Notes under the pieces: generated by a model
What the model was told of the DNA's origin: nothing
The model's database searches: none
The model's input: the letters and a program-made list of their open reading frames with translations, nothing else
Position numbers and translations under genes: made by a program
In this document: piece after piece, positions 11,791 to 17,131 of the stretch
Layout of the letters: each line of letters begins with the position of its first letter
Numbering within the stretch: the first letter of the stretch is position 1
Assembly: GCA_902785785.1 (NCBI GenBank)
Contig: CADAAA010000008.1
Coordinates: 39,669 to 103,668, forward strand
Length of the DNA: 64,000 nt
DNA from: an uncultured Bacteroidia bacterium
GTDB lineage: Bacteria; Bacteroidota; Bacteroidia; Bacteroidales; UBA932
Direction: 5' to 3'

Positions 11791-13149
11791 TTATACAAGT
11801 CCCTGGTCGACCATTGCGTTGGCGACCTTGATGAAGCCGGCGATGTTGGCGCCCTTCACGTAGTTGATGTACCCGTCCTCCTCGGTGCCGTACTTGAGGC
11901 AGGCAGCGTGGATGTCGGACATGATCCTGTGGAGCTGGGCGTCGACCTCCTCGGCCGTCCACTTCTGGCGGATGGAATTCTGGGTCATCTCAAGACCGGA
12001 GGTAGCCACGCCGCCGGCGTTGGAAGCCTTTCCGGGAGAATAGAGGATCTTTGCAGCCTGGAACGCCTCGATAGCCTCAGGAGTGCTGGGCATGTTGGCT
12101 CCCTCGGTCACGCAGAAGCAGCCGTTGGCAAGAAGGGTCTTGGCAGCCTCGCCGTTAAGCTCGTTCTGGGTAGCGCAAGGCATGGCGATGTCGCACTTGA
12201 TGCCCCAGGGCTTGGCACCGTCACCGGTATACTGGGCGTTGGGATACTGCTTGACATACTCCTTGATACGTCCGCGAAGGGCATTCTTGAGGTGCTTCAC
12301 GTAAGCAATCTTCTCCTCGTTGAATCCGTCCGGATCATAGATGAAGCCGTCGGAGTCGGAGAGGGTGACGACCTTGGCGCCGAGACGCATGGCCTTTTCG
12401 GCCGCGTGCTGGGCGACATTGCCGGCGCCGGAGACGACGACGGTCTTGCCCTCGAAGGTCTCGCCGCGGGTGGCGAGCATCTCCTGGGCGAAATAACAGG
12501 CGCCGTAACCGGTGGCCTCGGGACGCAGCAGGCTGCCACCCCAGGCGAGGCCCTTTCCGGTAAGGGTGCCGGTGAACTCATCGCGGAGACGCTTGTACTG
12601 GCCGAAGAGGAAGCCGATCTCACGGCCGCCGACACCGATGTCGCCGGCAGGGACGTCGGTGTCCTGGCCGATGTGGCGCTGGAGCTCGGTCATGAAGCTC
12701 TGGCAGAAACGCATGACCTCGGCGTCGGACTTTCCGCGCGGGTTGAAGTCGGAACCGCCCTTGCCGCCGCCCATGGGAAGGGTGGTGAGGCTATTCTTGA
12801 AAGTCTGCTCGAAAGCGAGGAACTTCATGATACTGAGGTTGACGCTGGCATGGAAGCGGATACCGCCCTTGTAGGGGCCGAGGGCGCTGTTCATCTGCAC
12901 GCGGAAACCGCGGTTGATGTGGATCTCGCCCTTGTCATCGGTCCAGGGAACCCGGAACATGATGACGCGCTCGGGCTCGACGATACGCTCCATGATCTTG
13001 TTGTCCAGGAGGTGGGGATAGGCTTCGAGGACGGGAACGACGCTGGTCAGGACTTCCTTGACAGCCTGATGGAACTCGGTCTCACCGGGATTCTTCGCAA
13101 TGAGTTCGGTCATGAAGGACTGAACGTACTTTTCAGCAAACTTAGTCAT
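11791..13149 (-). CDS. gdhA: Glutamate dehydrogenase (hexameric, probably NADP-dependent)
   Basis: The 452-residue enzyme interconverts 2-oxoglutarate plus ammonia with glutamate. Diagnostic stretches are GPYKGGIRFH, LPMGGGKGGSDFNP (substrate and catalytic Lys region), PAGDIGVGGREIG and the Rossmann-type VVSGAGNVAQHAAEK. The length is that of the roughly 450-residue hexameric bacterial class, which is usually biosynthetic and NADPH-linked; the cofactor is inferred from family. It lies 39 nt after ddh and 9 nt before the receiver/ATP-grasp gene in the same orientation, downstream of glutamine synthetase. It thus shares a probable transcript with the other ammonia-assimilating enzymes. Confidence 0.97.
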   Translation of the reverse strand: MTKFAEKYVQSFMTELIAKNPGETEFHQAVKEVLTSVVPVLEAYPHLLDNKIMERIVEPERVIMFRVPWTDDKGEIHINRGFRVQMNSALGPYKGGIRFHASVNLSIMKFLAFEQTFKNSLTTLPMGGGKGGSDFNPRGKSDAEVMRFCQSFMTELQRHIGQDTDVPAGDIGVGGREIGFLFGQYKRLRDEFTGTLTGKGLAWGGSLLRPEATGYGACYFAQEMLATRGETFEGKTVVVSGAGNVAQHAAEKAMRLGAKVVTLSDSDGFIYDPDGFNEEKIAYVKHLKNALRGRIKEYVKQYPNAQYTGDGAKPWGIKCDIAMPCATQNELNGEAAKTLLANGCFCVTEGANMPSTPEAIEAFQAAKILYSPGKASNAGGVATSGLEMTQNSIRQKWTAEEVDAQLHRIMSDIHAACLKYGTEEDGYINYVKGANIAGFIKVANAMVDQGLV

Positions 13150-13188
13150 AATTCGTTTTATTATTAATGGTTACACTACTAACTGTTT

Positions 13189-14088
13189 CTATACAAGCTG
13201 GCGCACGAGCGTTTCGCGGTCACCGGCGAGATAATCGATCACGGGGATTTCGATCATGGTATAGCATCCCGGACGCTGGCGCAGGGCGGCGCGTGCCGCC
13301 ATCACGAGCACCTGGCCCGTAAGGGCGGGATTGTTGATGCTCATGTCGAACTCGAAGTGCTGGTTGTGGGTCTTGCCGGAAACGCCCTTGCGGACAAGAT
13401 TGACGCCGTGTCCCACGTCGTTGAGGTCATCCACGCAGTCGACCTGCTGCACATGGGTCTCGTCATGGACGAAATACGGATCGGCCTTGATGGCGGCTTC
13501 GACCTTCTTGAAATCTACGCCTTCCTCCAGCTCGACATACACCATGCGGCGGTGCAGGCCGGTGCCGATCGGGATAGTGACGCTGAGCGCGTCCTTGACG
13601 CCTTCGATAGCCCTTACGGCCACAGAGTGGCCCATGGAGCGGCCGGGGCCGAAATTGGTGTAAGTGACGCCCTTAGGGGCGAGGCCCTGCAAAAGGGCGC
13701 GGACGACGGAATCGGAGCCCGGATCCCATCCGGCGGAGATGACGCTGACCGCGCCGTTGGCTTCGGCCAGGGGGCCGAGCGCTGCGCGGAGCGCGACGAT
13801 GTCCGTGTGGATGTCGAAGCTGTCCACGGTGTTGATACCCATCGCAAGATACTTCTCCGCATTCTCCTTGACTTTGCGCGAAGGTGTTGCAAGGATAGCG
13901 ACGTCCACATGGTCGAGTTCCCTTATATCGGAAACCACCTTATAGGAGGCAAGCTCGGGGAAGCCTTCGGCCGATCCGCTCCTGCGGACAACGCCGACGC
14001 ACTCCATGTCCGGGGCGGCCTCGACCGCCTCGAGCGAGTACTTGCCGATATTGCCGTAACCGACAATCGCAACTTTGATCTTTTCCAT
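13189..14088 (-). CDS. ddh: meso-Diaminopimelate D-dehydrogenase
   Basis: The 299-residue protein matches Ddh, which makes meso-diaminopimelate directly from tetrahydrodipicolinate, ammonia and NADPH. The N-terminal NADPH site is [13 protein letters not shown]. The catalytic and substrate regions include [26 protein letters not shown] and the C-terminal [14 protein letters not shown]. The reaction fixes free ammonia and supplies lysine and peptidoglycan precursor, which fits its position between glutamine synthetase and glutamate dehydrogenase. The gap to glnA is 29 nt. Confidence 0.96.
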
Positions 14089-14117
14089 GTCTATTATTGT
14101 TAAGAGGTTTACACTGA

Positions 14118-16298
14118 CTAACTTATAAACAGCAGTTCACGGTACTTCGGGAGAGGCCAGAGCCTGTTGTCCACGATCTCCTCGAGGCGGTCGATGGGCT
14201 TGCGCAGGCTGTTCAGGCTCTCCGCGATGTCACGGTAGGCGGAAGCCCGCTCATACGAATCTTCGATGGCATTCGCGGCCTTACGGGCCTTGTGCATCAC
14301 ATCAACGCGGGTGCGGATCTCCTCGATAAGGGCGGACATCTCCATGACGAGATTGCGCTCGGTATCACAGCCTTCGAGGCGGCCGAACACTTCCTTCGTC
14401 AGGGAAAGCTCCTTGAGCAGGTGAGTCTTGTACTCTATGGCGGTAGGGACGATATGGTTGGCCGCCATACGCGCCATCACGCGGGACTCGATCTGCACCT
14501 TCTTGCAGTATGTCTCCCACTTGACATCGCAGCGCGCGGCAATTTCCTTTTCAGTGAAGACACCGGTTTCGGCGAAAAGCGAGATGGCTTCAGGACGAAG
14601 GTAGGCCTTGATCATGTCCGGAACCTTGGTCTCGATGTCGAGTCCGCGGCGGGCCGCTTCCTTCTTCCATTCCTCGCTGTAGCCGTTTCCGTCGAAGCAG
14701 ACGACATCAAGTATGGAGGCGATGATGGGCTTGAGCGTATCCATGACAGCCACATCCATGGCTTTGCCACTGGCAAGGGTCTTGTCCACGTCGAGTTTGA
14801 AAGCAGTCAGCTGCTGCGCAACGGCCGCGTTGAGCGTAGCCATGGCCTCGCCGCAGTTGGCCGAGGACCCGACTGCACGGAACTCGAAACGGTTTCCAGT
14901 GAAAGCGAATGGAGAAGTGCGGTTGCGGTCGGTATTGTCCACGAAGATCTCAGGAATCTCAATGAGGCCAACTCCCCTGCCTTTCTTGCCGGCAATCTCG
15001 ATAGGAGTGTCGGAGGGAAGGTCAAGCAGCTTGCGGAGCACGCCGGTCATTGTACGGCCGAGGAAAGCAGATACAATCGCCGGAGGAGCCTCGTTGGCTC
15101 CAAGGCGGTGTGCATTGGTGGCGCTGGCGATGCTGGCCTTCAGCAGGGCATTGTGCCTCTGCACGGCTGCAAGGACATTGACGAAGAAGGTGACGAACTG
15201 GAGATTGCCCATGGCATCCTTGCCGGGAGCCAGGAGGGGAACTCCCGTATCAGTACCGAGCGACCAGTTGTTGTGCTTGCCGGAGCCGTTGATGCCCTCG
15301 AAAGGCTTCTCGTGCAGCAACACCACGAATCCATGCCTGCGGGCGATGGAGTTCATGAGGTTCATCACCATCTGGTTCTGGTCGTTGGAGAGGTTGCACT
15401 CACCGTAGATCGGAGCGAGCTCGAACTGGTTGGGCGCGACTTCGTTGTGGCGCGTCTTGAGCGGAATACCCAGCCGGTGACCGGCAATCTCGAGCTCACG
15501 CATGAACGCTGCCACGCGCGAAGGGATCGCACCGAAATAATGGTCGTCCAGCTGCTGGTTCTTGGAGGACATGTGTCCCATCAGGGTGCGCCCGGTAATC
15601 ATGAGATCCGGACGGGCGGCGTAGAGCGACTCGTCCACAAGGAAATACTCCTGCTCCCAGCCGAGATAGCAGAATACCTTCCTGACCTCAGGGTCGAACA
15701 TCTGGCAAATGGGCAGGGCCGCATCGGTGACGGCCTTGAGGGCCTTCTTGAGCGGGGTCTTGTAGTCCAGGGCCTCTCCCGTATATGAGATGAATACAGT
15801 AGGGATACAAAGGGTATCGTCCTGGATGAAGACCGGAGAGGTGGGGTCCCAGGCCGTGTAGCCGCGGGCCTCGAAGGTGGCACGGATGCCGCCGCTGGGG
15901 AATGAGGATGCGTCCGGCTCCTGCTGGGCAAGGGACTTGCCGTCGAACTGCTCGATCACGCCGCCGTGACCGTCGTATTCAATCAAGGAATCATGCTTCT
16001 CCGCAGTACCTTCCGTAAGGGGCTGGAACCAATGCGTCACATGAGTGACGTGATGGTCCAACGCCCACTCCTTCATGCCGCGGGCAACGCCGTCGGCAGT
16101 CTCCCTGTCAAGGGGCTTGCTGTTGTCGATGCAGTCGAGGAGGGCTTTCAGCACGTCGGGCTTGAGATACTTGCGCATTTTCGGGCGGTCGAAGACGAGC
16201 TCTCCGTAGTACTCCGAGATCTTCTTTTCGGGGACTTCCACGGGAAGCGCCTTCCTCTCGAAGGAAGACCTGACCAAGTCCAGTCTGTTGCTTTCCAT
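14118..16298 (-). CDS. glnN: Glutamine synthetase type III
   Basis: The 726-residue protein is the large dodecameric GS-III form typical of Bacteroidales, which makes glutamine from glutamate, ammonia and ATP. Features include [20 protein letters not shown] near the N-terminus, [19 protein letters not shown], and [18 protein letters not shown], which carry the metal, substrate and ATP sites. A C-terminal helical region follows. It is the first structural gene of the cluster. Upstream are a TAACTTTG promoter, a Gln-rich 28-codon ORF and an intrinsic terminator that ends 15 nt before the ATG, so transcription attenuation is likely. GS-III genes are also called glnN or glnA3. Confidence 0.98.
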
Positions 16299-16312
16299 AT
16301 TGATCTTAAATT

Positions 16313-16344
16313 AAAAAACCGATTCTTCGTGCTGGAAGAACCGG
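16313..16344 (-). terminator. Leader terminator (putative attenuator) upstream of glutamine synthetase
   Basis: On the minus strand a 10-bp stem (16344-16335 with 16328-16319, one G-U pair) and a CAGCAC loop are followed at once by six T residues (16318-16313). The glutamine synthetase ATG begins at 16298. A terminator placed between a promoter and its own gene implies conditional read-through. The right arm AATCGG could instead pair with CCGGTT at the end of the leader ORF (16397-16392), a possible antiterminator. Confidence 0.75.
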
Positions 16345-16383
16345 ATAATATGCTTTTACAAGTAATCTGCTGCAAATGGCTCG

Positions 16384-16470
16384 CTATCCAACCGGGTGGA
16401 TACGACAACAGACGCCCTGCCAGGACTGGGCCTGGGAGCGCTTCTGCTTTTTCTGGAAACCATTTAACAT
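16384..16470 (-). CDS. Putative glutamine-rich leader peptide
   Basis: A 28-codon ORF (ATG at 16470, TAG at 16386-16384) begins about 17 nt after the predicted transcription start. Residues 6-18 read QKKQKRSQAQSWQ, giving five Gln codons (all CAG) in 13 positions; the peptide ends with two adjacent Cys and HPVG. The sequence also forms stems, such as CCAGG/CCTGG within the Gln region and TATCCA/TGGATA at the stop codon. The layout (promoter, Gln-rich ORF, terminator, glutamine synthetase) is that of an amino-acid attenuator. No ribosome-profiling or homology evidence is available here. The CAG richness could instead come from RNA-structure constraint. Confidence 0.6.
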   Translation of the reverse strand: MLNGFQKKQKRSQAQSWQGVCCRIHPVG

Positions 16471-16493
16471 ATCTTTGTCTAACCAACTACTTA

Positions 16494-16523
16494 CAAAGTT
16501 AGAAAAAATTTTTAAAAACCAAA
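16494..16523 (-). promoter_or_regulatory. Promoter of the glutamine synthetase / nitrogen cluster
   Basis: On the minus strand TTTG (16523-16520), an 18-nt spacer and TAACTTTG (16501-16494) form a Bacteroidetes-type promoter. Transcription would start near 16487, giving a leader of about 190 nt before the glutamine synthetase ATG. Confidence 0.75.
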
Positions 16524-16563
16524 ATATCTTGCGTTTTTTTTCACTTCACCACTCTACTTCTTG

Positions 16564-16596
16564 AAAAAAAGGACCTGCGGGAAATACCCGCAGGTC
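16564..16596 (-). terminator. Intrinsic terminator after nrdG
   Basis: A perfect 10-bp GC-rich stem (16596-16587 with 16581-16572) with a 5-nt loop is followed on the minus strand by seven T residues (16570-16564). It starts right after the nrdG stop codon and separates nrdDG from the nitrogen cluster. Confidence 0.92.
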
Positions 16597-16597
16597 T

Positions 16598-17131
16598 TCA
16601 GTCTTGACGCTGTGATTCGAGGCCCCTGTGCCAGAAACGAGGCGTAATGTCGATGAAACGGCGTCCGGAGGCGCGCATGCGGAACTCGGACCCCTCCGGG
16701 GCCGGTTCGTCCGCGCCGAGGACGCGGTACAGCCGCTGGTTCGTCCCGGGATTGTTCAGCGGCCCGTTCTCAGGGATGTAAGGACCGACCTTGATGTAGT
16801 CGAAAGCCTCCCAGTAAGGGCCGTCGACCTCGCGGCGTCCGCTGTACAGGGCCGGGATGAGTCCCAGGGCCCGGACATGCGCCGCGAGCTCCAGCAACCG
16901 CTCCGGATCCCTCCCCTCTCCGAGGAAAAGGAAACAGTCGATGCCGAAATTGTCCGAGACCAACTGAGAGATGATCTCAGGAGTCAGCTCCTCTCCTATG
17001 TCCTCCTTCAGGAAAGGAGAATGGCAGTCAACGCAATTGCCCCGGCAGTTGGATATGTCCACTGCCAGGGTAACGCGGTCGGGTATCTCCTCCAGTACGA
17101 CGGAGGTCATTTCCGGGACATACTTGATCAT
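16598..17131 (-). CDS. nrdG: Anaerobic ribonucleotide reductase activating protein (radical SAM)
   Basis: The 177-residue protein activates NrdD by making its glycyl radical with S-adenosylmethionine. The [4Fe-4S] motif is CRGNCVDC (CX3CX2C) at about residues 30-37. The longer open frame overlaps nrdD heavily. The ATG at 17131 is chosen because it overlaps the nrdD stop as ATGA, giving translational coupling, and because the conserved domain begins there (MIKYVPEM). A strong terminator follows the stop codon. Confidence 0.94.
   Translation of the reverse strand: MIKYVPEMTSVVLEEIPDRVTLAVDISNCRGNCVDCHSPFLKEDIGEELTPEIISQLVSDNFGIDCFLFLGEGRDPERLLELAAHVRALGLIPALYSGRREVDGPYWEAFDYIKVGPYIPENGPLNNPGTNQRLYRVLGADEPAPEGSEFRMRASGRRFIDITPRFWHRGLESQRQD

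Follow-up and report, generated by a model that had tools for sequence, protein, structure and literature searches.

A putative leader-peptide attenuator rich in glutamine codons precedes glutamine synthetase and related ammonia-assimilation genes in gut Bacteroidales

Leader-peptide attenuators of trp, his, leu, thr, ilv and phe genes are known in Proteobacteria and Actinobacteria. Nitrogen control in bacteria, on the other hand, is usually ascribed to sensor proteins and transcription factors. Glutamine riboswitches are cyanobacterial ligand-binding aptamers that lack a Gln-rich coding leader, and both these families and the T-box are included in Rfam. Beyond the classical cases, leaders of the same logic, likewise recognised by leader comparison, have been described in the accessible portions of two papers, namely His leaders before hisS/hisZ in bacilli (PMC2965389) and a Cys upstream ORF before cysS in Rhodobacterales (PMC8632094), the latter also mentioning cyanobacterial glutamine riboswitches. 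The leaders described here differ from both in amino acid, phylum and genes, and the main text of PMC2965389 contains no word starting with gln, glutamine or Bacteroid. Within the same phylum and following the same logic, leader-peptide attenuation before amino-acid operons has been noted in Flavobacterium psychrophilum, with no Gln leader mentioned in the available text (PMC9723704), and attenuation of this type in the phylum is also mentioned in available parts of PMC7366714. Our literature search, which covered few subscription journals, returned no Gln-sensing leader-peptide attenuator, so an earlier prediction may exist.

The window analyzed here is a 64-kb stretch of DNA from an uncultured member of the Bacteroidales. 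Based on its sequence and that of its relatives, an element on its minus strand very probably acts as a ribosome-mediated transcription attenuator, sensing charged tRNA-Gln (joined by tRNA-Asn in sister operons) and controlling ammonia assimilation. Similar to the classical attenuators, it combines an ORF carrying codons for the end product with a protector, a candidate antiterminator and an intrinsic terminator. It differs from them in its Gln (or Gln and Asn) codons, in its host family within the Bacteroidales and in its targets, which are glutamine synthetase, asparagine synthetase, glutamate synthase, glutamate dehydrogenase (GDH), PII and an ammonium transporter. What is new is the sensed amino acid and the nitrogen regulon, while the mechanism itself resembles that of trp and his attenuators. 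The features of the locus are as follows.

16494..16523, minus strand: putative Bacteroidota-type promoter, TTTG (16523-16520), 18 nt, TAACTTTG (16501-16494)
16384..16470, minus strand: leader ORF of 28 codons, predicted product MLNGFQKKQKRSQAQSWQGVCCRIHPVG; Gln/Asn-dense ORFs are also found in homologues
16455-16453, 16446-16444, 16434-16432, 16428-16426 and 16419-16417, minus strand: CAG codons of the leader (codons 6, 9, 13, 15 and 18)
16366..16412, minus strand: predicted outer protector helix P1b, TCTGTTG (16412-16406) with CAGCAGA (16372-16366)
16382..16404, minus strand: predicted inner protector hairpin P1 around the stop codon, -5.8 kcal/mol
16339..16393, minus strand: candidate antiterminator, 16393-16384 paired with 16348-16339, the terminator's left foot
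16313..16344, minus strand: predicted intrinsic terminator, stem 16344-16319 (10 pairs, -13.0 kcal/mol) and T6 16318-16313, ending 15 nt 5' of the glnN ATG (16298)
14118..16298, minus strand: glnN, glutamine synthetase type III (PF12437 GSIII_N, 3.7e-73; nearest solved structure PDB 3o6x, 3.7e-268)
13189..14088, minus strand: ddh, diaminopimelate dehydrogenase, second gene of the putative operon (TIGR01921, 367 bits, cut-off 180.6)
11791..13149, minus strand: gdhA, glutamate dehydrogenase, third gene of the putative operon (PF00208, PF02812)

Reading 16523-16299 on the minus strand confirms the arrangement reported by a sequence-only reading of this DNA: a Bacteroidota-like promoter, the ORF with its five CAG codons, a stop-codon hairpin and a terminator follow one another before the ATG of type III glnN. 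The promoter layout matches what we take to be the Bacteroidota consensus, and a sigma-70 scan returned no promoter. The motif TAnnTT[TG][GC] precedes 49 of the 52 Gln/Asn leaders of glnN, including that of the window (shuffled expectation 10.8). Because the gene upstream of the leader stops before a strong terminator-like stem (16596-16572), the leader probably begins its own transcript. Folding of the 192-nt leader gives z = -2.99. Taking one ORF of 12-60 aa per stop codon, the two strands of the window yield 960 short ORFs, of which two contain at least five Gln in 14 residues. When short Gln/Asn-dense ORFs with a terminator behind them were sought, the glnN leader was the sole match. The three genes behind the leader are separated by gaps of 29 nt (glnN/ddh) and 39 nt (ddh/gdhA), and their order is also kept in locus L270. 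This order (11791-16298) ties diaminopimelate dehydrogenase to ammonia assimilation.

For comparison, glnN upstream regions were gathered from members of the same genus, family and order, together with named genomes. The named glnN record whose protein is identical to that of the window belongs to RUG470, a MAG of an uncultured Bacteroidales bacterium; several records of relatives carry the name Candidatus Cryptobacteroides. From 243 loci, 224 were usable and formed 163 upstream clusters; left out were four with <150 nt upstream, 14 in which the glnN start was not located and, on purpose, L242. A terminator (score ≥24, no more than 170 nt from the ATG) was identified in 71 of the 163 clusters, with none in the other 92 by the same criterion. 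ORFs were not picked by composition, and those with at least five Gln in 14 residues were counted as Gln-dense. Such an ORF is present in 39 of the 71 terminator-bearing clusters, compared with a mean of 0.15 and a maximum of 1 in 20 rounds of shuffling, and in 3 of the 92 clusters without terminator. Asn-dense ORFs occur in 14 of the 71 (0.35 shuffled), and the next residue, Ser, reaches 8 of 71 (3.6 shuffled). With Gln and Asn pooled, 52 of the 71 clusters carry a leader, a somewhat low count because the terminator finder chose another hairpin in L052 and L162 and because eight loci in five clusters have a Gln/Asn-dense ORF but lack a terminator that reaches the score of 24 (among these, the stems of L066 and L129 have poor tails). 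A terminator is present at 47 of the 78 usable named loci, and 37 of these combine it with a leader. These counts support the attenuator interpretation that the sequence-only reading had put forward. When 118 loci were scanned in full on both strands, five matches were obtained, all before glnN or asnB, three of them known beforehand.

The leader peptides before glnN vary widely, as exemplified by MKYNLYSQQQEQQQSQNQQVPGASWCV, MSFVVLNNNNQNNNQNQQVLIASV and MSYNRSYAFAQFQGQQQSWRSSSCVHRSTAR. Their Gln codons are CAG in 294 cases and CAA in 2, which is not special to leaders, as five genes of the window show a CAG:CAA ratio of 72:1. Leaders that keep the stems and lose the Gln codons or the ORF, regarded in the sequence-only reading as a sign of a structural riboswitch, are exceptions; mostly the opposite is seen. 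The exceptions comprise L123, L127, L128 and L131, which are rich in Asn with Gln few or absent, the weakly enriched leader of L093, and L114, L089 and L112, where a GGCTGG-type terminator is kept and a Gln/Asn-dense leader is absent. In L114, L123, L127, L128 and L093 the terminator and CCAGCC are retained despite Asn-rich, weakly enriched or unenriched peptides. A further set of loci (L006, L007, L063, L065 and L070) has a strong terminator right before glnN and no intervening Gln/Asn leader; these terminators may respond to another signal or be remnants.

The genome to which the window belongs contains three Gln or Gln/Asn leaders, located before glnN-ddh-gdhA (the window), asnB-glnN-gltB-gltD and glnK-amtB. 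Its second glnN sits 3' of asnB and 5' of gltB and gltD, the last named from its domains and place. The asnB leader, MTNLFIISANFKQQFVSENSQNSQNNKLYLVLPVG, and the leader of the PII gene glnK, which is followed by amtB, MINIFTITANFKQQLVSENSQNSQNNNAVSCLAGRIR, each contain Gln and Asn codons and are each followed by a terminator. On the reverse strands of L332 (glnK) and L242 (asnB), the leader DNA is near-identical from the ORF through the terminator, which points to recent copying of the whole attenuator. This genome also encodes a glutaminyl-tRNA synthetase (GlnRS, 697 bits), so that tRNA-Gln charging can directly report free glutamine.

Within the family, Gln/Asn leaders are also found before glnK in L292, L327 and L329, before glnN of other genera in L277 and L279, and, in L300, before a porin-like gene (named by eye) that is followed by glnK and amtB. 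In one genome from another family of the order, leaders lie in front of glnN (L131) and of a porin-like gene plus glnK (L347). In L337 (523-1212) a porin-like gene, again assigned by eye and without a Pfam or NCBIfam match, lies between the leader and glnK-amtB. Leaders were identified at 3 of 30 PII loci from the family and 2 of 30 from the order, the window's own genome included; on visual inspection, four further weak matches in L345, L349 and L351 were dismissed as spurious. Scanning 20 stretches with second glnN copies revealed an AsnB start in five, three of which have a leader (L242, L258 and L246) and two of which have none (L251 and L253). The asnB start in L251 (genome G700) is 96% identical to that of the window's genome, has the end of another gene in front and lacks a leader of its own; this asnB may be part of an upstream operon. 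Gln/Asn leaders are not general in the order, since none was found before glnN in the best 28 of 192 order-level genomes with a match (L132-L159) and only two of the 30 order-level PII loci carry one.

Leaders for other amino acids exist in the same genome and family. Directly in front of the genome's own hisG lie a His leader, MSRNAHTTLGHHHHSER, and a terminator (L263, reverse strand 1216-1269). The model R1 led to a His-rich leader before hisG (L304) and a Leu-rich leader before leuA (L301) elsewhere in the family, as well as, in genus g15, to Trp-rich leaders of a TrpB-like gene (L280, L282-L288), one of them being MNAQVNNFFFWRAWFWQ. The genes 3' of L304, L301 and L282 were checked. Leaders whose His, Leu or Trp codons match the product of the downstream gene indicate that this family employs ribosome-mediated attenuation repeatedly. 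R1 brought in 32 loci, 19 of them without a clear leader. By downstream gene, R1 loci include five with glnN, eight with the trpB-like gene and one each with glnK, a porin-like gene, leuA and hisG; among those remaining, two come from the trpB-like genus and are truncated or located differently. In the window's own genome R1 gave two weak matches, neither with a leader, and missed all three of its leaders. No leaders were found at the genome's thr and phe genes.

These observations bear on whether the RNA itself could be the sensor, that is, whether a ligand-binding riboswitch or T-box-like RNA recognizes glutamine or tRNA-Gln while the ORF is incidental. The main leader class does contain conserved RNA stretches and helices, as such a sensor would. 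Stems and RNA sequence nevertheless differ between leader classes while Gln/Asn density persists, and the His, Leu and Trp leaders reached through R1 are what would be expected if codons set specificity. An Rfam search of the whole window yielded nothing at gathering score, and the region 16250-16600 searched at E up to 5 gave four weak unrelated matches, with glutamine riboswitch and T-box not among them. The window leader and the cyanobacterial glutamine riboswitches are alike in being RNA leaders that couple glutamine to glutamine synthetase expression; the window differs in its Gln-rich coding leader and its lack of an Rfam match. We therefore consider direct sensing by RNA highly improbable and favor a ribosome-mediated attenuator.

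Such an attenuator needs a leader that is read by ribosomes. In the window, a short and apparently translatable ORF, a criterion for attenuators, lies between promoter and first gene. Of 207 distances between non-adjacent CAG triplets, 150 are divisible by three; CAG spacings in control regions, which consist mostly of coding sequence, are likewise in phase (58 of 108). Indels in multiples of three make up 5 of 5 in the ORF and 8 of 62 in the spacer for pairs at least 80% identical, 11 of 16 and 33 of 171 for pairs at 75% identity, and 274 of 781 and 490 of 2491 across all 259 pairs, the pairs overlapping in each comparison. The sequence-only reading had proposed aligning glnN leaders to see whether the Gln-rich frame, with synonymous changes, and the terminator are conserved. 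The Gln-rich ORF and the terminator do recur, whereas the synonymous excess is absent: substitutions in the leader ORF show no third-position excess (256/237/205 by codon position), and codon differences in the Gln/Asn core are synonymous in 48 and nonsynonymous in 194 cases. Outside Gln/Asn, no peptide conservation was found across glnN leaders. An unconserved sequence is usual for leader peptides whose only role is being read.

The freedom of the peptide to vary also speaks against the leader ORF being a regular small gene, Gln-rich and with a terminator of its own, in which case glnN expression would depend on a different promoter or on leaky termination. An ORF and a terminator alone would appear identical under that explanation, and the asnB and glnK leaders of the window's genome share their roughly 30 first codons almost completely, so that the peptide is kept at least between two recent copies. 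In this very pair, however, a single base that differs past the Gln/Asn core gives the peptide another C-terminal end and another stop, without affecting the core, the antiterminator or the terminator. Together with the conservation of complementary RNA strands, this makes a small gene of independent function very unlikely, and the leader is better explained as part of an attenuator.

The RNA architecture was analyzed in an alignment, A1, of 31 leaders from 48 references (52 leaders before filtering), with 17 divergent or near-duplicate sequences omitted. The A1 counterpart of the window's terminator is paired in 98.1% of cells. The antiterminator of A1, in which CCAGCC close to the stop codon meets GGCTGG in the left arm of the terminator, is paired in 97.8% of cells, inner protector P1 in 86.5% and outer P1b in 77.9%, percentages which lean toward structures derived from the same sequences, as these three elements were named by the analyst and then counted. 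Slid controls in A1 gave lower pairing and lower covariation scores for all four elements. Within A1 the antiterminator shows no covariation, P1b has no more two-sided pair changes than shuffled or slid controls do, and RNAalifold recovered the terminator only.

Sixteen representatives, chosen by the analyst for their differing arms, were used for swapping antiterminator regions and terminator arms. Own combinations scored better than swapped ones (permutation P = 5e-5) and above the mean of the others in 14 of 16, with the named strand not the best match in L010, L038, L088 and L208. Less directed tests gave weak results: duplex energies were -12.9 for own and -12.6 for swapped partners (own better in 31 of 53), with a median rank of 15 among 100 shuffles, and a second test reached p < 0.1 in 22 of 52. 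Individual duplexes range from -12.2 kcal/mol in L010 and -13.4 kcal/mol in each of the asnB and glnK leaders of the window's genome to -6.5 kcal/mol in the window itself. Judged by sequence, relatives retain the strands of protector, antiterminator and terminator, but the antiterminator of the window itself is weak.

Two pairings suggested by the sequence-only reading can be placed within this architecture. TCTGTTG with CAGCAGA, put at 16413-16407 and actually beginning one position later (16412-16406), is the outer part of the protector: P1b is found at the same offset in the window, in L161, where both sides have changed, and, in shorter form, in L052. A window-type antiterminator is also possible in these two relatives. 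CCGGTT, which lies at 16395-16390 rather than 16397-16392, can indeed pair with the terminator right arm as suggested, but the pairing kept throughout the class involves the left arm.

With a mock ribosome placed at the last Gln/Asn codon, the antiterminator formed in 5 of 10 leaders (L010, L060, L034, L109 and L027). In L131 it formed only with the ribosome at earlier codons, and it was absent from the folds of the window, L090, L123 and L161. With the mock ribosome at the stop codon, it formed in none of the ten. Equilibrium folding preferred the terminator at every ribosome position tried, so that the switch, if real, must be kinetic. P1 and P1b fit the model of a protector whose 5' strand could be covered by a stalled ribosome, the 5' strand of P1b in the window beginning 4 nt past the last Gln codon.

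The DNA contains the ORF with its codons, the terminator, the complementary strands and sister operons of the same layout. At the level of sequence, the features of an attenuator appear to be present; the antiterminator is well supported for the class and a weak candidate in the window. We hypothesize that RNA polymerase would initiate at the putative promoter about 17 nt 5' of the leader ORF, with a ribosome translating the ORF behind it. If Gln-tRNA is ample, the ribosome would reach the stop codon and mask the antiterminator strand, allowing the terminator to form before glnN. If no ribosome is loaded, the P1b/P1 protector would sequester the antiterminator strand, and termination should result as well. 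When Gln-tRNA is scarce, the ribosome would stall on the CAG codons and mask the 5' strand of the protector. The freed antiterminator strand could then pair with the terminator left arm, and polymerase would read through into glnN-ddh-gdhA.

The leader might instead act on glnN translation or through Rho rather than intrinsic termination. Translational control by a leader peptide has a precedent in tetQ of Bacteroides. Against this, a stem with a T-rich run lies between Gln/Asn leader and gene in all 52 leader-bearing clusters counted among the 71 with a terminator, and the stem in the window ends in six T close to the ATG. Control at either of these other levels is accordingly extremely unlikely in our estimation, and intrinsic termination governed by the leader ribosome remains the preferred reading.

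The genes preceded by these leaders match a set known to respond to nitrogen in a rumen bacterium. According to the accessible text of PMC5552732, amtB, glnK, asnB, glnN-2 and gltBD of Prevotella ruminicola 23 shift about 27- to 69-fold with ammonium supply and gdhA 2.2-fold; PII is the only regulator named there, and the direction of change is given inconsistently. In the family studied here, the ammonia-assimilation regulon appears to be wired via the glutamine (and asparagine) codons of leader peptides. We are evenly divided on whether central nitrogen control in this family operates without a dedicated DNA-binding regulator for these operons, with charged tRNA read in leader ORFs setting transcription of glnK-amtB, glnN, gltBD, gdhA and asnB. 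If true, glutamine and asparagine supply would govern the genes for ammonium uptake and for glutamine, glutamate and asparagine synthesis. In this group of gut Bacteroidales, ribosomes running short of glutamine, or of asparagine, probably turn on the genes of ammonia assimilation.
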